Assembly: GCA_021108395.1 (NCBI GenBank)
Contig: JAIOQZ010000039.1
Span: 1 to 64,000 of the forward strand
DNA length: 64,000 bases
Reading direction: 5' to 3'
DNA from: Candidatus Cloacimonadota bacterium
GTDB lineage: Bacteria > Cloacimonadota > Cloacimonadia > Cloacimonadales > JAIOQZ01
Position numbers and translations under genes: made by a program. Positions 15,459 through 30,154 of the stretch are shown here, piece after piece (positions within the stretch are counted from its first letter, which is position 1; the number at the start of each line of letters is the position of its first letter). The notes under the pieces are model-generated. The model was not told the origin of the DNA, made no database searches, and worked only from the letters and a program-made list of their open reading frames with translations.

Positions 15459-15839
15459 ATGAGAGATTGCCCGGTATGCGGCATTCCGTTGAAAGAAGAA
15501 ACGCTTCACCGTCAAGCTATCGACCGCTGCGAAAAATGTCGCGGTATCTTCTTCGATCACGGCGAGCTCGCCTCGATTCTGAACATCGTGCGAATCTACC
15601 GCAGTTTCAAGCTGGACGAAGCGGAAATCGACACCCTGAGCGACAACGGCGACAACCGGGTTATCGACTGCCCTTCCTGTGGCATGCCGATGGCGCAGAA
15701 AGAGGTGGGCGGCGCGGTGGTGGATTTCTGCGACTCCTGCGGCGGCGTCTGGCTCGACGGCGGCGAGATACAGGCGCTCAAAATGGCCGAAAATCATGTG
15801 CGCGAGAACATCAACCTCTACATCAGACTGGGTATGTAA
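15459..15839 (+). CDS. Double zinc-ribbon protein (zf-TFIIB type)
   Basis: This is a 126-residue soluble protein. It has two zinc ribbons: CPVC..CEKC (Cys 4, 7, 24, 27) and CPSC..CDSC in the second half, each followed by a G-x-(F/W)-x-D-x-GEL-like turn typical of the zf-TFIIB family. The family is common in bacteria but its function is not established. The start at 15459 follows CGGAGGAAT. It ends 10 bases before the Fic/Doc gene, and the two probably share a transcript. Confidence 0.75.
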   Translation: MRDCPVCGIPLKEETLHRQAIDRCEKCRGIFFDHGELASILNIVRIYRSFKLDEAEIDTLSDNGDNRVIDCPSCGMPMAQKEVGGAVVDFCDSCGGVWLDGGEIQALKMAENHVRENINLYIRLGM

Positions 15840-15849
15840 GGAGCCTGCC

Positions 15850-16257
15850 ATGCGATATGTAAACAAGAAAATGGTGGTGGTCATCAACAAGCTGGTCACC
15901 GAGCTGTCTGGCGGCATGGCCACCCATGGAACCAACCTCCGTCCCGGACAGAGCCTGGGTTTCGTCGAGCGTATCTTTTACAACGAGGTATTCGGCCAGC
16001 AGATATATCCGTCCGTGTATCATCAGGCAGCGGCATACATGTATCACATCATCAAGAACCATCTCTTCATCGATGGCAACAAACGCACTGGGCTATGCAC
16101 AGCCATCACCTTTCTCGAGTGGAACGACATCCTGCTGGCGCCGTTCAACGAGGACGAGGTGTTCCGCTTCGTCATCACCATAGCCGCCGGTGACGAGCCT
16201 CACGAAATCGTCATAGATCGCATCGCGGGCTGGCTGAAGGAAATGTGCCTGAGTTGA
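15850..16257 (+). CDS. Doc/Fic-family protein
   Basis: This 135-residue protein is of the Fic/Doc fold. The active-site loop is HLFIDGNKRTG, the Doc-type HxFxxxNKR pattern, where Lys replaces the glycine of AMPylating Fic enzymes. Doc of phage P1 phosphorylates EF-Tu and acts as a toxin, so this protein may be a kinase-type toxin; that activity is inferred. The length fits Doc (about 126 residues). No typical Phd-like antitoxin is next to it; the upstream neighbour is a zinc-ribbon protein. The start at 15850 overlaps nothing and follows GGAGCCTGCC. Confidence 0.82.
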   Translation: MRYVNKKMVVVINKLVTELSGGMATHGTNLRPGQSLGFVERIFYNEVFGQQIYPSVYHQAAAYMYHIIKNHLFIDGNKRTGLCTAITFLEWNDILLAPFNEDEVFRFVITIAAGDEPHEIVIDRIAGWLKEMCLS

Positions 16258-22087: not shown

Positions 22088-22168
22088 GCTCTGTAATTGC
22101 ATTGTTGAAAAAAGTCGCAGGAAACTGGAACCACCGGTGTATTGTATAGTGAATCCAATGGAGGAAGA

Positions 22169-22447
22169 ATGAATATCACACGTTTGCAACAGCTTGCCGT
22201 CAGCGATAACGGCTTTGCCTTCGATCCATCGACCGGCCACAGCTATCAGCTTAATATGCTGGCCGCAGAAATTGTCGATCTCCTGCTGAAACAGCAAAAA
22301 CGCCAGGAGATTCTCGAACATCTCACAATGGAATTTAAGGTCGAGAGCGACGTAGCCGCCCAGGACTTCGATTTCTTCATGCTGTCACTGTCCAACCTCG
22401 GCCTTGTGGAGACAAGCGATGCGCTTTCCCCAGCACCTGGCCAATAA
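22169..22447 (+). CDS. PqqD-like protein (RiPP-recognition-element fold)
   Basis: This 92-residue protein is of the PqqD family. The core NGFAFDPSTGHSYQLNMLAAEIVDLL matches the PqqD winged-helix pattern (x-D-x-x-T-G-x-x-x-x-L-N), followed by helices with QEILEHLTMEF and a VAAQDFDFFM..LSNLGLV end. PqqD-like domains bind leader peptides in RiPP pathways, or act in other peptide-modifying systems. The start at 22169 follows GGAGGAAGA. It overlaps the ATP-grasp gene by 29 bases and is the first gene of a three-gene operon. No precursor peptide gene is evident nearby. Confidence 0.78.
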   Translation: MNITRLQQLAVSDNGFAFDPSTGHSYQLNMLAAEIVDLLLKQQKRQEILEHLTMEFKVESDVAAQDFDFFMLSLSNLGLVETSDALSPAPGQ

Positions 22448-23483
22448 GACCATCGCTGTCAGCGGACTGGCCACCGGCGACAACCCACAGCCAGGCGTAC
22501 CGGTTATTCGCAGCCTGCGTGAAGCCGGATTCACAGGCCGCATCGTCGGTTTCGCTTACGATTCGCTCGAGGCAGGCATCTATGTGGACAATCTGGCCGA
22601 CGACATCTTTCTCATGCCATATCCTTCCTCCGGCATCGACGCCTTTCTTGCCCGCATGCAACAGATTGTGGCGCAAGCGCCCATCGATATCGTCATTCCC
22701 ACGCTCGACTCGGAGCTGCTTACCTACATCCGCCTGCAAAGCAAGCTCGAAGCGCTGGGCATCCACACTTTTCTGCCCACCGAGGATCAGTTCCGCCTGC
22801 GCGACAAAACATGCCTGGCCCGCTGTTTCGACGACGAGGACATCCGCGTACCGCACACACTGATGCTGAACGAAGTCGGACAGCTCGCCAGAGAAGACAT
22901 CCGCTATCCCGTTTTCGTCAAAGGCGCTCTTTACGAAGCCTATCGCGCCAACACGATTGCCGAAGCGGCCGCGCTCTTCCACCGCATCAGCGCCAAATGG
23001 GGACTTCCCATACTGGTGCAGGAATTCGTGCAGGGCGAGGAATTCAACATCTGCTGCGTGGGCGACGGCAAGGGCAACCTGCTGGGCATGGTGCCGCAAC
23101 GCAAGCTGATTATTACCGACAAGGGCAAGGGCTTTGGTGGCGTAGTGGTGGACAACCCCCAGCTCAATGAGTTCACGCGCAAAGTGGTGGCAAGCCTGCG
23201 CTGGCGCGGCCCCTGTGAACTCGAGGTGATTCAGCGAGCCGACGGCGTTTTCTTTCTCATCGAGATGAACCCGCGCTTTCCCGCCTGGGTGAGGCTGGCC
23301 ACCGGCGCAGGACAAAACCTGCCGGCCATGGTGGCGTGCCTCGCGCTGGGTGAGGACGTCGAGCCGTTTACAACCTGCCACGCCGGTACAATGTTCATCC
23401 GCCACTCTGAAGACATTATCGCCAACATACAGACAATGGGACAGTTATCAACACAATACATGCTACGAAAGGAAAAACGATGA
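22419..23483 (+). CDS. ATP-grasp domain ligase
   Basis: This 354-residue protein has an N-terminal pre-ATP-grasp domain (VSGLATGDNPQPGVPVIRSL..DIVIPTLDSELL) and a carbamoyl-phosphate-synthetase-type ATP-grasp domain. The latter shows YPVFVKGALYEA, the linker ILVQEFVQGEEFNICC and the metal-binding FLIEMNPRFP (about residue 285). Such enzymes activate a carboxylate with ATP and join it to an amine or another nucleophile. The substrate cannot be read from the sequence. ATG 22419 is preferred; it lies inside the end of the PqqD-like gene. The stop overlaps the next gene in ATGA. Confidence 0.85.
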   Translation: MRFPQHLANKTIAVSGLATGDNPQPGVPVIRSLREAGFTGRIVGFAYDSLEAGIYVDNLADDIFLMPYPSSGIDAFLARMQQIVAQAPIDIVIPTLDSELLTYIRLQSKLEALGIHTFLPTEDQFRLRDKTCLARCFDDEDIRVPHTLMLNEVGQLAREDIRYPVFVKGALYEAYRANTIAEAAALFHRISAKWGLPILVQEFVQGEEFNICCVGDGKGNLLGMVPQRKLIITDKGKGFGGVVVDNPQLNEFTRKVVASLRWRGPCELEVIQRADGVFFLIEMNPRFPAWVRLATGAGQNLPAMVACLALGEDVEPFTTCHAGTMFIRHSEDIIANIQTMGQLSTQYMLRKEKR

Positions 23484-24823
23484 AACGCCAATACGAAGCG
23501 CCAACCATCATTCGCCATCAGGCGGGACTCATTAACAAGGTTGCACACCAGGCCGTGGCCGGCCACCGCGACAGTATCGGAGGCGTACCCGTCAGTACGC
23601 TCATCGAGCGCTATGGCTCACCGCTGTTCGTTTTCGACGAACACCACATCCGCACCCGATACCGCGAAGTGCTGTCCACTATACGCGCACACTATCCCGA
23701 CACCGACATCAGTTGGAGCTATAAAACCAACTACCTGGGCGCAATCTGCAGCATCTACCATCAGGAAGGCGCCCGCGCCGAGGTGGTGAGCCGCATGGAA
23801 TATGACATGGCGCGCCGACTGGGCGTGCCCGGAAAAGACATCCTGTTCAATGGCCCGGGCAAGCGCCGCGAAGACCTTCTGCTGGCCGTCGAAGAAGGCG
23901 CTCTCATCCACATCGACCATCTCGATGAGATGGTTATGATCGAGCAGGTGGCCGACGAGCTCGGTATGCGGCCACGGGTTGCCATCCGCGTCAACATGGA
24001 CACGGGGATTTACCCGCAGTGGCAGAGGTTCGGGTTCAATTACGACAACGGCGAAGCCTGGCGCGCTGCACAGCGCCTGGTTGCCGGCGGCAAGCTGGAA
24101 CTCGAAGGAGTGCACTGTCACATCGGCACGTTCATGCTCGAACCAAACGCCTATTACATCAGCACTGCCAAGCTGTTGGCCCTGGCGTTGCGCCTGCGTG
24201 ACGAACTGAATGTCACCGTGAGCTATGTGGACATCGGCGGTGGATTTGCCAGCAGTAACACGCTGCACGCGCAATACATGCCCGGCGAGCTCGCCTCGCC
24301 CGGCTTCGACCGCTTCGCCACAGCCATCGGCAGCGCCATGAACGAGTCGCAGTTCGTGCGTGAAGAACACCCGAGGCTGATGCTCGAGACAGGCCGCGCC
24401 CTCATCGACGAAGCCGGCAGCATGATAAGCACGGTCATTGGCCGTAAGTATCTGCCCACAGGAGTGCGGGCGCTCATCCTCGACGCCGGCGTGAGTGTGT
24501 TATTCACCTCCTGGTGGTACAACCTGAAAGTAACGCCGGCACAGCCGCTTTCCGGTTCGACTCAGCCCACCACCTTCTTTGGCCCACTGTGCATGAACAT
24601 CGATGTGGTGAAAAACTCCTGCATGTTCCCCGATATGCGCAACGGCGAGCGCGTCATCGTCTCGCCGGTGGGTGCATACAACGTCACCCAGTGGATGCAG
24701 TTCATCGAGTACCGTCCCGCCGTAGCGCTGGTGACAGAAACCGGCGGCACCGAACTCATCCGTGAGCGCGAATCGCTACAGGACGTTATTGGCCGCGAAC
24801 GACTACCGGAACACCTGGCGTAA
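23480..24823 (+). CDS. PLP-dependent decarboxylase (DapDC/ODC fold III)
   Basis: The enzyme has 447 residues and the alanine-racemase/ornithine-decarboxylase barrel. SWSYKTNYLG holds the PLP lysine (about residue 82), HCHIGTF and VDIGGGFASSN bind the phosphate, ETGRALIDEAG is the conserved Glu-Gly-Arg region, and GPLCMNIDVV is the C-terminal active-site cysteine motif. It resembles diaminopimelate or related amino-acid decarboxylases, but its pairing with a PqqD-like and an ATP-grasp gene argues for a dedicated pathway and not lysine biosynthesis. The start overlaps the ATP-grasp stop by four bases. Confidence 0.85.
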   Translation: MKRQYEAPTIIRHQAGLINKVAHQAVAGHRDSIGGVPVSTLIERYGSPLFVFDEHHIRTRYREVLSTIRAHYPDTDISWSYKTNYLGAICSIYHQEGARAEVVSRMEYDMARRLGVPGKDILFNGPGKRREDLLLAVEEGALIHIDHLDEMVMIEQVADELGMRPRVAIRVNMDTGIYPQWQRFGFNYDNGEAWRAAQRLVAGGKLELEGVHCHIGTFMLEPNAYYISTAKLLALALRLRDELNVTVSYVDIGGGFASSNTLHAQYMPGELASPGFDRFATAIGSAMNESQFVREEHPRLMLETGRALIDEAGSMISTVIGRKYLPTGVRALILDAGVSVLFTSWWYNLKVTPAQPLSGSTQPTTFFGPLCMNIDVVKNSCMFPDMRNGERVIVSPVGAYNVTQWMQFIEYRPAVALVTETGGTELIRERESLQDVIGRERLPEHLA

Positions 24824-24825
24824 GA

Positions 24826-24914
24826 CAGGGGCGTTGCCCCTGAACCCCACCAAACTTTTTGTAAAAAGTTTGGATCAAAAACTTTTGATGGAAACTGCGT
24901 TTCCTATGTACGAA
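24826..24914. repeat. Interspersed palindromic repeat, copy B
   Basis: It starts three bases after the decarboxylase stop with CAGGGGC-GTT-GCCCCTG. Then come AACCCCAC, the hairpin CAAACTTTTTG/TAAAAAGTTTG, and AAAACTTTTGATGG with GGAAAC/GTTTCC. It is the cleanest copy of the family. Confidence 0.8.
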
Positions 24915-24981
24915 GAAATTGTAGTATATTGCCTAATATGTAAAAAACATGATGGCTCTACAGTATAAAGGCTGGCACAGC

Positions 24982-27138
24982 ATGAAACAAACGCTGGGAC
25001 ATGGCGGCGCCGCTGCCCGTTCACTGCTCGACACCTACTCGACAGTGCTGTTCAGTGACCGCTGGACTGTTGGCCTGCTGGTGCTCGCCGCCACCATGAT
25101 CGACCCCTGGGTGGGCGTGTCAGGTTTGCTGGGCGCGACGTGGGCTGTTCTGCTGTCGCGTGTGCTTGGCTTCGACACCTGGGACGGGCGCACCGGCGTC
25201 TTTGCCTTCAACAGCATGCTCACCTGCCTGGGAGCGGGTTACTTCTTTCCTGCACCGCAGGCCGATGTGGCGATGTGGCTGGGACTGGTGGTGTTCGCCT
25301 CCACGCTGGCGATGCTGGCGTTCGTGGCGTTCAACGCGCTCAGTCTGCTCCATCTGCGGCTTCCCTCGATGAGCCTGGCGTTCTCGACCGTGGCGATTCT
25401 GTTGTCCTTTTTCGCGCTGGTGTTCGAGGGCTTCGAGCTGTTTGGCGGGCATCACGAACTGCTTGTCGTGTGGGAACCCAACATGCCGCACTTCTGGCTG
25501 TGGTATTTCAAGAGCCTGGGCAGCATCTTCTTCCAGACAGGCTTTGCGGCAGGGCTGCTGGTGGCGTTGGCGCTGGCGGTGGCCACACGGTTCGGTCTGC
25601 TGCTGTCGCTGGTGGGCTACGCGGTGAGCTATCTGTTCATCGACCAGATGGGAATGCTGGGCCTGTATGACATCAGCTACATCGGGCTGAACGGCATTCT
25701 GGTGGCGCTGGCCATCGGCGGAACCTTCCTGGTGCCGTCGCGCACAGCATTACTGCTGGCGGCGGTGGGCGCCCTCACGAGTGTCTTCATGACGCTGGCG
25801 CTGCAATCGATATTCTATCGCTACACGATACCACCCTACGCTTTTCCGTTCAATCTCACCGTGCTGCTGCTGGTGTTCGCCCTGGGGCAGCGGCTGCGCA
25901 ATCGCAGGCCCTACGTCGTTGACTATGGCGTTCGCAGCCCCGAGGAAAGCCTGCGCTACTTCCTGTCGCGCATCCTGCGGTTCTACCAAACGGGCGCGCC
26001 GCAGTTCTATCTGCCGTTCAAGGGCCGCTGGCGCGTGACGCAGGGCAACAACGGCGACATTACCCACAAGCTGCAATGGGCCTATGCCTGGGACTTCGAG
26101 GTGTTTGACGACGATGGAGCGAATTACCGCGGCAAGGTGGACAAACTGGACGACTATTACGCCTACCGCAAGCCCGTGCTGGCCTCGGCAGACGGCTGGG
26201 TGGCGCGGGTGGTGGACGGCATCGACGACAACCCCGTCGGCCAGATAAACACCCGCGAAAATTGGGGCAACCTGGTGGTTTTGCATCACGGTGGCGGCGT
26301 TTATTCGATGTACTGTCACCTGCGCCCGGGCAGCGTTCGTCCCAGAGAAGGCGACTGGGTGAGGCGTGGCGAGCGGCTGGGCGCAGTGGGCAACTCGGGG
26401 CGCTCGGCGGTGCCGCATCTGCACTTCAACGTGCAGCTCGGTCCAGAGCCTGGGTCGCCAACGCTCGAATCATATCTGGTAAACTATCGTAGCGAGGGCG
26501 AGCATGAGACTTTCACCGGCTTCGGCATCCCCGGCGAGAACGAGGAAGTGGCGCCGCTGGCGCGTGTGCGCAACCTTCAAGACCGCCTGCACCTCAAGGT
26601 GGAAGACACCAGCCGTTTCCGGGTGAACAGCGGCGGCCATGCGCACACCGAGCGCTGGGACACCCGCGTGGACTTGCTGGGCAACCTACAGGTTGTCTCC
26701 AACCGCCACTCACGGCTGTCGTTCAGCGTTTTCGACGGCATCTACAACACGCTGGGGTTCAGCGGAAACAGACGCAGCGCCTTGTGGGCGCTGGGCGCGC
26801 TGCTCACGCGGCAACCATTCGAGGAAGATCGCGGCCTGGCCTGGAGCGACGAACCGCCCTTTCGTATCTTTCTTCCGCGCTGGCAGGAAGAACTGCTGAT
26901 GCTGCTGCATCCGCTGCTCAAACCCCTGCGGCTCAAGGCTGTCTCGCACAGCCAGCGAGAGAAAAACCGCTGGCGAGTGTGCACAACCGTCGAGCTGCGC
27001 CTGTTTGGCCGACTGGTTCGTACCTGGGAAGGCTTTGTAGTTATCGAGCAGTTTGTCGGCGTGCGCTCGTTGGAACTGCGTCGCGGAGATCAAGTCATCG
27101 TGCAGGCAACAAGAATCGAAGAAGAGGAGACAACATGA
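24982..27138 (+). CDS. Urea transporter fused to M23 metallopeptidase domain
   Basis: The product has 718 residues. Residues about 15-320 form a polytopic domain of the urea transporter family, with about ten helices and the blocks VLFSDRWTVGLLVLAATMIDPWVG and FNSMLTCLGAGYF. A LytM/M23 domain follows (about 350-520). Its zinc ligands are visible: H in THKLQWAYAWDFEV, the D of WDF, and VPHLHFNV. The last about 200 residues are an unassigned domain with beta-strand character. It could move a small amide and cleave or sense peptidoglycan; how the parts work together is unknown. The start at 24982 has AAAGG ten bases before it; ATG 24949 is an alternative. The stop overlaps the next start. Confidence 0.82.
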   Translation: MKQTLGHGGAAARSLLDTYSTVLFSDRWTVGLLVLAATMIDPWVGVSGLLGATWAVLLSRVLGFDTWDGRTGVFAFNSMLTCLGAGYFFPAPQADVAMWLGLVVFASTLAMLAFVAFNALSLLHLRLPSMSLAFSTVAILLSFFALVFEGFELFGGHHELLVVWEPNMPHFWLWYFKSLGSIFFQTGFAAGLLVALALAVATRFGLLLSLVGYAVSYLFIDQMGMLGLYDISYIGLNGILVALAIGGTFLVPSRTALLLAAVGALTSVFMTLALQSIFYRYTIPPYAFPFNLTVLLLVFALGQRLRNRRPYVVDYGVRSPEESLRYFLSRILRFYQTGAPQFYLPFKGRWRVTQGNNGDITHKLQWAYAWDFEVFDDDGANYRGKVDKLDDYYAYRKPVLASADGWVARVVDGIDDNPVGQINTRENWGNLVVLHHGGGVYSMYCHLRPGSVRPREGDWVRRGERLGAVGNSGRSAVPHLHFNVQLGPEPGSPTLESYLVNYRSEGEHETFTGFGIPGENEEVAPLARVRNLQDRLHLKVEDTSRFRVNSGGHAHTERWDTRVDLLGNLQVVSNRHSRLSFSVFDGIYNTLGFSGNRRSALWALGALLTRQPFEEDRGLAWSDEPPFRIFLPRWQEELLMLLHPLLKPLRLKAVSHSQREKNRWRVCTTVELRLFGRLVRTWEGFVVIEQFVGVRSLELRRGDQVIVQATRIEEEETT

Positions 27139-27728
27139 AAACGACAATAGCAGTATTCATCATGCTGGCGGCAAGTGCGCTTGCCGCTCAGAACACTCTC
27201 GAACTGATGACCGAGTCATACGATTTCGAGACTATCTCGCGCTACGACGCGGCCATCCGCTCGATGCAGCAGCTTGTCGAGATAGAGCCGGACAACGCTT
27301 TTCATCACCTGCGGCTTGGCTGGCTATATTACGCCAGCGGACAATACGCCGCCGCCGAGCGTCACTATGCTCTGGCCGCCGACATCGAGCCGGTTCTCGA
27401 AGCGCTCGAAGGCCGCATGAATTCCGCCAGCGCCCAGCAAAAGTGGTCACAGGCCGTTGCCGCCGCCGACGAGGTGCTCAAGCGCTTCCCCAACCATTTC
27501 TACGCGCTCGCTTCCAAAGCATACGCCTTTTATATGCAAGGTGAATTCGAGCAGGCGGTGAGCTTCTATCGCAAAGCGCTCACCATCTACCCATACAACC
27601 TCGAAGCGATGGGCTACCTGTTGAGCGCTCAGATGCTGAACGGAGACACCCAGGGCGGGCAAAAGACCCTTGCAAAGCTGCAACCGCTCAGTCCGGCCAA
27701 TGCCTTTGTGCTTGAGTATGCGCAATAG
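27135..27728 (+). CDS. Exported TPR protein
   Basis: The product has 197 residues with a signal peptide (MKTTIAVFIMLAASALAAQ), so it is probably periplasmic. It contains about four TPR units, including AFHHLRLGWLYYASGQYAAAERHYALA and AFYMQGEFEQAVSFYRKALTIYP. The start overlaps the stop of the urea-transporter fusion by four bases, and the end overlaps the next gene by 11 bases, so this operon is translationally coupled. It probably scaffolds its envelope partners; the partners are inferred from context only. Confidence 0.75.
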   Translation: MKTTIAVFIMLAASALAAQNTLELMTESYDFETISRYDAAIRSMQQLVEIEPDNAFHHLRLGWLYYASGQYAAAERHYALAADIEPVLEALEGRMNSASAQQKWSQAVAAADEVLKRFPNHFYALASKAYAFYMQGEFEQAVSFYRKALTIYPYNLEAMGYLLSAQMLNGDTQGGQKTLAKLQPLSPANAFVLEYAQ

Positions 27729-28971
27729 CCTGACTTTGGCTCTCTTGCTGCTGATAAGCGTAGCGCTGGTGGCGGACGTGAGCGGGGAACTGGACGAAGC
27801 CGCCAGTCTGCTCACTACCGACCCTGAAGCCGCCGAGACTGCTTACCGCTCTCTGTTGACGCGCTATCCCTACCACGACAGCGCCTGGAGCGGCCTCGTC
27901 GAGGCGCTGCTGGCGCAGTCGCAACCGGAAGCGGCGCTGGCTGTAGCGCAAGACGGTCTACAGCAGCTTGGCGAACACCCGGGCCTGCTGCGACTGGCAG
28001 CGTGGTCGGCATTTCAATCCAACCGGTATCTGCTGTCGCTGCAACTATATAAGCGTCGAATCGAAGTGGCAGGCCCAACCGCCACAGACCTGGCAGGGCA
28101 GGGCTGGAATCTTGTGAAACTCGGTAGTTGGCATACGGCCCAACAGGAATTCCTGCACGCCGCCAGGCTGGACAGCGCCAGCGTTGCCGCGCAGAGCGGC
28201 CTCGCCGCCACTGCCTCGCCCTGGCGTTTGCTGCACCTCAAGCTGGGCTACGCCGCCATCGAGGGCGAGGGAACCGAAAACCCCTCGGCGTCGGCGCTGC
28301 TGCACTGGGGGGACTGGAAAGCCTACATCTATGGCGAGCGTTTTTCCAGCGACGACAACCGCGACGTGCTGGCGCTGGGTGTTTCACCCGCATGGGGCGA
28401 TTGGCGGCTTTGGCTCGAGTGGTACTACGCAGCCGGCGACAACCGATATGTCTTCCCAGGGCGCGTCTATTCACTGCACCTGTGGCATACGCTTTATATG
28501 GGCGCAGGGGCGCTCGACTCCGGTGTCGGCGGCAGCGGCTCCGACTGGGCGTATCACCAGACCTTGCAGATGGATGCAAGCCTCGCCTGGAATATGGATC
28601 GCTGGAACGTCGGCGCACAGGCCTTCTGGCTGGACGTTCGCTATCACCTCATCCATGAGGAAGACGATAACGACTATCCGTTCAGTTTCAAGTTGGACGA
28701 GGACTGCGATGGCTGGTATCTGCGGCTGCACGGCGAGGCCGCCGTCTGGAACGACATCATCTGGCTGGGCGTGGCCACTGAATGGGGCGAACGGGGCTAC
28801 CTGGTCCACCCCGGTGGTTATCTGGTTGACAACAGCGAGGCTGCGCACCGAGTGTTGGTTGCCCGGGCACGGCTGGCCTGGCAAAGCTGGCATCTGCTGG
28901 CCGGCGCCAAGTATGACAATAACGATAATACGCTTTGGTTCATCGAAACCGGTAGAACCATCAGATTATAG
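27718..28971 (+). CDS. Exported TPR plus outer-membrane beta-barrel protein
   Basis: The 417-residue product has a signal peptide (MRNSLTLALLLLISVALVA) and an N-terminal TPR segment (about residues 25-160, AAETAYRSLLTRYPYHDSAW). The second half is rich in aromatic alternating strands such as DWRLWLEWYYAAGDNRYVF and GWYLRLHGEAAVW, ending in TGRTIRL. This is typical of an outer-membrane barrel of the YaiO type. The start at 27718 lies in the end of the previous gene. No substrate can be named. Confidence 0.72.
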   Translation: MRNSLTLALLLLISVALVADVSGELDEAASLLTTDPEAAETAYRSLLTRYPYHDSAWSGLVEALLAQSQPEAALAVAQDGLQQLGEHPGLLRLAAWSAFQSNRYLLSLQLYKRRIEVAGPTATDLAGQGWNLVKLGSWHTAQQEFLHAARLDSASVAAQSGLAATASPWRLLHLKLGYAAIEGEGTENPSASALLHWGDWKAYIYGERFSSDDNRDVLALGVSPAWGDWRLWLEWYYAAGDNRYVFPGRVYSLHLWHTLYMGAGALDSGVGGSGSDWAYHQTLQMDASLAWNMDRWNVGAQAFWLDVRYHLIHEEDDNDYPFSFKLDEDCDGWYLRLHGEAAVWNDIIWLGVATEWGERGYLVHPGGYLVDNSEAAHRVLVARARLAWQSWHLLAGAKYDNNDNTLWFIETGRTIRL

Positions 28972-28978
28972 GAGAACG

Positions 28979-30154
28979 ATGATGGCACGATTGGCGCTGC
29001 TGTTTCTATTGCTGGCGGGCGGACTGGACGCCATACCGGCGTTGCGGCCACAGATGCCGCACAGGGGCGATGCCCCGTCGTCGGCCACCCGCGAAATGCG
29101 CTTGGACATATACTATTACAGCGAATACGTTTCGGATGACTGGCAGCAGCTTTTTCGCTATACATACGAGTGGGGCGATGACGGCCTGGTGCAGGCCCTT
29201 CAGGTTGACTCGCTGAATGCAAGCTGGCAGCCCAACTATCTCTACTCCTACGAGCATGACGCGCAGGGCTGCACATCAGAAATCCTGATGCAGACATGGG
29301 ATGGCGCCTGGGTAAATGACTGGCGCAACGACATCGCCCACAACACAGACGGCAACATCACCGAGAGCTTCACCCGCCAGTGGGTGGACGGCGGCTGGGT
29401 CGATTATTTGCAAAAGCTTTTCACCTACGTTGGCCTCGAACTGGTGAACGAAGAGTGGATTTACTACGACCGTCAGCCCGATTATCGTTGCGACTACATC
29501 TATGACGAGCAAGACCGCGTGATCGAGGAAACCTGGGAGGTGAACGACGGAAGCGGCTGGGAGAACGACTCCCGTGCGCTCTACACCTGGAATGATGACG
29601 GGCTGGCAACGGAAACCTGGCAGCTTTGGTCAGACGAGTGGACGCCAGATTCCCTCACGCTCTATGCTTACGACGACAACCAGTGGCTCCAGAGCATCGA
29701 GGTGGCCTACTGGGACAGCGACTCCGCCGACTGGGTGAGCGCCGAGTTATTTCTCTACGCATACGACGAGGACGGCTATTGCGAGACCTGCACAAAGCAC
29801 GACTGGAACGACGACCGTGACTGGATGCCGCAATGGCGCTACGAATACTTCTGGGAGCAATCCTCAGCCATCGCCGACGACACACAAGCGCCGCCCCCGG
29901 CGACGCTGCGGGCCTGGCCCAACCCCTTCAATCCGCGCACAGAGCTTCGCTTTACGCTGGCGCACCCCGGGCAAAATCGTCTGGACATCTATAACGTTCG
30001 CGACCAGCTTGTGGTCACGCTTGTCGATGAATTCCTCCAGGCCGGAGAACATACCGTCATCTGGGAAGCCGAAGGCTGCGCCAGCGGCGTCTATCTCATT
30101 CGATTACAAGGCGAAGGTGATTGCCAGAGCCAAAGGGTCATTCTGCTGAAGTAG
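28979..30154 (+). CDS. Secreted W/D-rich repeat protein with C-terminal sorting domain
   Basis: The product has 391 residues, a signal peptide (MMARLALLFLLLAGG), and five or six degenerate repeats of about 40 residues of the form YxYDxxG...W-D-x-W..N. These resemble the Trp-rich YD-like repeats common in secreted FCB proteins. The end carries WPNPFNPRTELRF and finishes RVILLK. Two ATG codons (28979, 28982) follow AGGAGAACG. It begins eight bases after the barrel-protein stop, so it is probably the fourth gene of that operon and may be its exported cargo. Confidence 0.8.
   Translation: MMARLALLFLLLAGGLDAIPALRPQMPHRGDAPSSATREMRLDIYYYSEYVSDDWQQLFRYTYEWGDDGLVQALQVDSLNASWQPNYLYSYEHDAQGCTSEILMQTWDGAWVNDWRNDIAHNTDGNITESFTRQWVDGGWVDYLQKLFTYVGLELVNEEWIYYDRQPDYRCDYIYDEQDRVIEETWEVNDGSGWENDSRALYTWNDDGLATETWQLWSDEWTPDSLTLYAYDDNQWLQSIEVAYWDSDSADWVSAELFLYAYDEDGYCETCTKHDWNDDRDWMPQWRYEYFWEQSSAIADDTQAPPPATLRAWPNPFNPRTELRFTLAHPGQNRLDIYNVRDQLVVTLVDEFLQAGEHTVIWEAEGCASGVYLIRLQGEGDCQSQRVILLK

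Follow-up and report, generated by a model that had tools for sequence, protein, structure and literature searches.

The 64,000-nucleotide stretch of Candidatus Cloacimonadota DNA analysed here (the window) carries an operon with genes for a PqqD-like protein, an ATP-grasp ligase and a fold-III PLP decarboxylase at its head, followed by a urea-channel/M23 peptidase fusion (UT-M23), a TPR protein and a TPR/barrel protein. The peptide gripped by the PqqD-like RRE is probably a tag on the front end of the decarboxylase and not a separate precursor, so that the sequence-only reading, in which the RRE recruits a separate peptide or carrier, is probably wrong on this point. The best combined explanation is in our view a RiPP-type RRE that has an enzyme as its client in a small-molecule pathway, to which we give a probability of about 0.6. 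The gene set is widespread and apparently undescribed. We found no paper describing it in the open-licence literature, in line with the earlier statement that no described pathway with just these three parts is known, although the UT-M23, TPR and TPR/barrel genes also travel with them. The features referred to below are as follows.

22160..22168, + strand: ribosome-binding site of the PqqD-like gene, GGAGGAAG / GGAGGAAGA, read from the sequence
22169..22447, + strand: PqqD-like discrete RRE, 92 aa (PF05402, 38 bits against a cut-off of 23.4)
22419..23483, + strand: ATP-grasp carboxylate-amine ligase, 354 aa, PRK12767-like (PF15632 and PF02655 above cut-off)
23480..24823, + strand: 447-aa PLP decarboxylase of fold III, similar to N-citrylornithine decarboxylase (matches PF02784 and PF00278 above the cut-offs)
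23480..23545, + strand: leader-like N-terminal tail of the decarboxylase, residues 1-22, MKRQYEAPTIIRHQAGLINKVA (from alignment and model)
23492..23509, + strand: YxxPxI motif (YEAPTI, decarboxylase residues 5-10), the proposed RRE docking site (from alignment and the lasso-leader motif; PMC13381572, PMC12710340)
23525..23545, + strand: second tail motif GxxNK[FY]G, here GLINKVA (from alignment; Lys20 is 23537-23539)
24949..27138, + strand: UT-M23, a 729-aa fusion protein with urea-channel, M23 metallopeptidase and C-terminal beta domains (PF03253 and PF01551 above cut-off)
27135..27728, + strand: TPR protein, 197 aa (TPR families; position kept in relatives)
27718..28971, + strand: 417-aa TPR protein, probably with a beta-barrel in the outer membrane (TPR matches; equivalent gene in relatives)

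All three head genes are real and, judged from their sequences, look active. The open reading frames that the sequence-only reading had placed at 22169-24823 are all present and overlapping, with Pfam matches above the cut-offs, and only the start of the ATP-grasp gene had to be shifted slightly: its best start is the ATG at 22419, giving an overlap of 29 nt with the PqqD-like gene. The decarboxylase gene overlaps the ATP-grasp gene by 4 nt (ATGA), the TPR gene overlaps the UT-M23 stop by 4 nt, and the TPR/barrel gene in turn overlaps the TPR gene. These overlaps, together with the order kept in relatives, bear out the earlier view of a coupled PqqD/ATP-grasp/decarboxylase unit.

A scan of genome contigs with a single sequence returned no relative; an alignment-based scan did. 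In the phylum, the ATP-grasp ligase was matched in 35 of 125 Cloacimonadota genomes (the match in one, G091, is weak and comes without the cassette), and the cassette is present in 34, or a quarter, in all of which the order PqqD, ATP-grasp, decarboxylase, UT-M23, TPR, TPR/barrel recurs. The profile scan of GTDB genomes gave at least 530 ATP-grasp relatives; the best 80, which were read, come from Cloacimonadota, Ignavibacteria/Chlorobi, Bacteroidota, Myxococcota, an Elusimicrobia bin and Deltaproteobacteria, and have the same core. The gene set is not a chance arrangement: 34 genomes of the phylum share its order, as do about 65 further loci, mostly from other phyla. Cultured carriers include Flavihumibacter stibioxidans and Petrimonas (loci L115 and L129). 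Of 98 loci, 96 have the PqqD gene upstream of the ATP-grasp gene at a distance of no more than 700 nt, the two exceptions being a locus at a contig end (L125) and one with an inserted ORF (L119), and the median gap is 4 nt between ligase and decarboxylase and 9 nt between decarboxylase and UT-M23. No natural fusion of PqqD with the ligase or the decarboxylase was found, the open frames being of single-gene size; long frames in L107 and L125 were considered as fusions and rejected, as they trace to the ORF caller.

The linkage also holds at the level of whole genomes. Among 297 sampled genomes on the Bacteroidota side, 27 (about 9%) carry the decarboxylase, all at E ≤ 1e-181, with no matches between this value and the threshold of 1e-60. 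A PqqD match at E ≤ 1e-16 was present in 27/27 of these genomes and in 0/28 decarboxylase-negative ones, a limited sample, and it lies some 1 kb upstream, or 3 kb in the case of G388. The full-length UT-M23 protein shows the same split (27/27 against 0/28; one of the negative genomes has a partial M23-type match). Thus the possibility raised by the sequence-only reading, that the three genes might not be kept together in relatives, was not borne out. If the proposed reading is true, it would name a metabolic pathway in these 9% of sampled Bacteroidota species and in the Cloacimonadota carriers among the 125 searched.

The nearest sequence relatives of the PqqD-like family are discrete RREs from the pathways of lasso peptides and linear polyphosphorylated peptides. 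The best solved relatives of its profile are TbiB1, TfuB1, 9x90 and 9x8z, and the lasso-PqqD model NF033530 is matched by 36/36 members, below its cut-off. Such RREs bind leaders of the type [Y/W]xxPx[L/V/I/F/A] (PMC13381572; see also PMC12710340). In LppB, D70 hydrogen-bonds the leader tyrosine and N33 fixes the proline kink, while F74, M78 and L83 line the groove and a second pocket (PMC13381572). At the equivalent positions of the PqqD-like set, N29, D66 and L74 are each found in 36/36 sequences, as is an aromatic F/Y70, and position 79 is mostly leucine; the protein in the window keeps N29, D66, F70 and L74. The kept residues indicate that the peptide groove has been retained, not which ligand it binds, and the N and D may be common across PqqD-type RREs.

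A candidate ligand is encoded within the operon itself. YxxPx[IVL] stands at the N-terminus of every decarboxylase with a correctly read start (the start of L100 had been placed in an incorrect upstream frame), and among 49 aligned decarboxylases Tyr5, Pro8 and I/V/L10 are each present in 49/49. The tail has a pLDDT of 47-60 and no secondary structure in a monomer model in which most of the enzyme exceeds 90, and is accordingly predicted to be disordered. It also contains a second motif, GxxNK[FY]G (G16 47/49, N19 47/49, Lys20 49/49, with F/Y21 and G/A22 nearly invariant), which is as conserved as YxxP, and docking alone does not explain it. The tail could also serve otherwise, for example in the decarboxylase dimer or active site. 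A phmmer search of the tail against the PDB gave no match.

When compared with the lasso RREs (TbiB1, TfuB1/FusB1) and with LppB/PbaB1, the system is alike in the PqqD fold family, the groove residues and the YxxPx[IVL] partner motif; here, however, the partner motif sits on a 447-aa enzyme and not on a precursor peptide, and no cyclase, kinase or precursor gene lies alongside. From these sequence comparisons, docking of the RRE on the decarboxylase tail is likely, and it would couple the decarboxylase to the ATP-grasp ligase. For a module familiar from peptide natural products, such a role would be new. RREs serve as markers of RiPP clusters, and for many PqqD-like proteins no precursor is known (PMC12710340); if the client can be an enzyme tail, then some of these orphan proteins are not RiPP genes, and a precursor will be sought around them in vain.

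The strongest competing explanation is an ordinary RiPP pathway whose precursor is encoded elsewhere in the genome, the YxxP tail of the decarboxylase being a relic or an unrelated motif. The usual role of discrete lasso-type RREs is in RiPP pathways (PMC7470986, PMC13381572), and the channel-fused M23 peptidase could cut off a leader. Nevertheless, what was found of a RiPP system is an RRE and a YxxP-type recognition sequence, the latter on the decarboxylase, and no precursor gene with a leader. Around about 98 cassettes, a single small ORF on the cassette strand, PqqD itself, is conserved from group to group, which upholds the earlier remark that no obvious precursor gene is present; the other small ORFs kept in several loci were set aside as precursors, being antisense shadows of PqqD or lineage-local genes. 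The earlier remark that no radical SAM enzyme lies alongside also holds. In a whole-genome search of 23 genomes, 20 contained the whole tail as a DNA pattern, with 21 matches in total, all at a decarboxylase start (a reversed control pattern gave four), although a precursor bearing only the YxxP half would escape this search. Furthermore, the tail is invariant from Cloacimonadota to Myxococcota, unlike a relic. We therefore regard a hidden precursor as unlikely.

A second competing explanation takes the RRE as a regulator that switches the decarboxylase on or off by binding its tail, in the manner of antizyme with ornithine decarboxylase. A conserved tail that is predicted to be disordered would suit such a role, as would an RRE that is always encoded with the decarboxylase. 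It leaves unexplained, however, the tight coupling to the ATP-grasp ligase, whose gene stands between those of the RRE and the decarboxylase in nearly all loci, and we consider it rather improbable.

For the preferred reading, with the enzyme tail as client of the RRE, the two catalytic partners suggest a chemical logic. In the ATP-grasp ligase, the catalytic positions K169, E209, E270, E283 and N285 are invariant in 12 relatives. In the decarboxylase, the catalytic positions K82 (the PLP lysine), H214, GGG253-255, E303, R306, C371, D375 and Y400 are invariant in 49 relatives. The nearest solved enzyme, both by profile and by fold, is the N-citrylornithine decarboxylase FslC of rhizoferrin synthesis (7kh2), and BtrK is also close. 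FslC shares with the cassette enzyme a CM after the catalytic loop (GPSCMQHD / GPLCMNID), but the latter scores 203.9 bits against the NF041039 cut-off of 500, its partner is an ATP-grasp ligase and not a siderophore synthetase, and its YxxP tail did not align in FslC. No siderophore (NIS) synthetase was found among the conserved cassette neighbours.

The butirosin pathway offers the second comparison. There the ATP-grasp enzyme BtrJ loads Glu on BtrI, and BtrK decarboxylates the carrier-bound Glu, so that BtrJ/BtrK resemble the present pair in combining an ATP-grasp ligase with a fold-III decarboxylase whose amino-acid substrate has its side chain blocked. The active-site motif of BtrK, in contrast, is GPLCTPED, and here no acyl carrier protein lies alongside, PqqD being the sole conserved small protein and the RRE filling the small-protein slot. 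Both FslC and BtrJ/BtrK follow the logic of ligation first and decarboxylation of the conjugate thereafter. By analogy, the ATP-grasp ligase would engage a side-chain group of an amino acid in an amide (or similar) bond, and the decarboxylase would then strip the alpha-carboxylate from the conjugate, as FslC does on N-citrylornithine and BtrK on glutamyl-BtrI. These precedents lean slightly towards ligation preceding decarboxylation. The product would then cross the envelope via the UT domain of UT-M23 and the TPR/barrel proteins; by analogy, this may be export and not import.

The conserved Lys20 permits a further variant, in which the RRE presents the tail, the ATP-grasp ligase loads the amino acid on Lys20, the decarboxylase acts on its own tail-bound substrate, and an M23 domain on the cytoplasmic face frees the product for export. 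The decarboxylase would then be a self-carrying enzyme that replaces a RiPP precursor or an acyl carrier protein. We regard both this scheme and the replacement it implies as doubtful.

The decarboxylase resembles LysA in fold and catalytic residues. It scores 192 bits against the LysA model TIGR01048, with a cut-off of 297.9, and the LysA motifs RPxxY and CESxD are replaced by TSWWY and CMNID. In a small tree with few outgroups, the cassette decarboxylases form one clade (support 0.84), separate from LysA. Outside Cloacimonadota, a second gene exceeding the LysA cut-off is present in 26 of 31 carriers, while the cassette enzymes of these carriers score 209 to 248 bits, which agrees with the earlier suspicion that the decarboxylase is distinct from LysA. 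The argument from a separate LysA is built on these Bacteroidota-side genomes because the second LysA-like copies in Cloacimonadota look, from their motifs, like ornithine/lysine decarboxylases: four of the five readable ones (L147, L148, L150 and L151) carry GPTCDSxD, and they were dropped as candidates for a separate LysA. Thus, by sequence, the cassette enzyme is not LysA. The sequence-only reading had asked if it might be the only LysA of the genome; it is indeed the sole TIGR01048 match here, yet it falls short of the cut-off and lacks the LysA motifs. That it should be the diaminopimelate decarboxylase of the organism, in a lysine or polyamine operon, is very improbable, even though a match above the LysA cut-off occurs in only 3 of 107 genomes of the order, since G092 of this order carries a true LysA in addition to the cassette enzyme and the cassette is patchy in the phylum, missing also from genomes without LysA. 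Most genomes of the order, this one included, have no LysA above the cut-off.

The remaining genes would act in the envelope. The model of UT-M23 has a pLDDT of 90.5, with UT and LytM folds identified. Compared with the urea transporters (dvUT, UT-A/UT-B), its channel domain (PF03253, 147.7 bits) aligns over its whole length and has a dvUT-like fold (TMt 0.85 against dvUT); unlike these transporters, it shares its chain with an M23 peptidase and a beta domain, and it scores 66 bits against TIGR03441, below the cut-off of 275. The M23 zinc ligands and catalytic histidine (H373, D382, H457, H490 and H492) are invariant in 45 relatives. Charge counts (5.4 K+R after the last UT helix, and a net negative loop between the halves) suggest, by the positive-inside rule, that both ends of the channel and hence the M23 domain are on the cytoplasmic side, which is unusual for M23. 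The C-terminal beta domain (residues about 510-722) has a high-confidence model and no Pfam match. The TPR/barrel protein shows a weak match to PgaA-type export porins, and its outer-membrane barrel is probable from sequence.

Other parts of the locus differ from relatives. Between the decarboxylase and UT-M23, where the median spacing in relatives is 9 nt, the window has 125 nt (24824-24948) with two adjoining hairpins, GGGGC-GTT-GCCCC and CCAAACTTTTT-GTAAAAAGTTTGG, present as a single copy in the window; there is almost no gap at the equivalent place in relatives. A scan for promoters and terminators gave results at chance level. In Cloacimonadota the cassette is often closed by a lipoprotein of about 920 aa (for example L036:15503-18217), which has no domain matches and is missing in the window; its place is occupied by a gene at 28958-30154 with a weak match to a type IX secretion sorting domain at its end. 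Elsewhere in the window, the ORF at 15679-16257 carries a Fic/Doc-like HLFIDGNKRTG motif, recognized by eye only.
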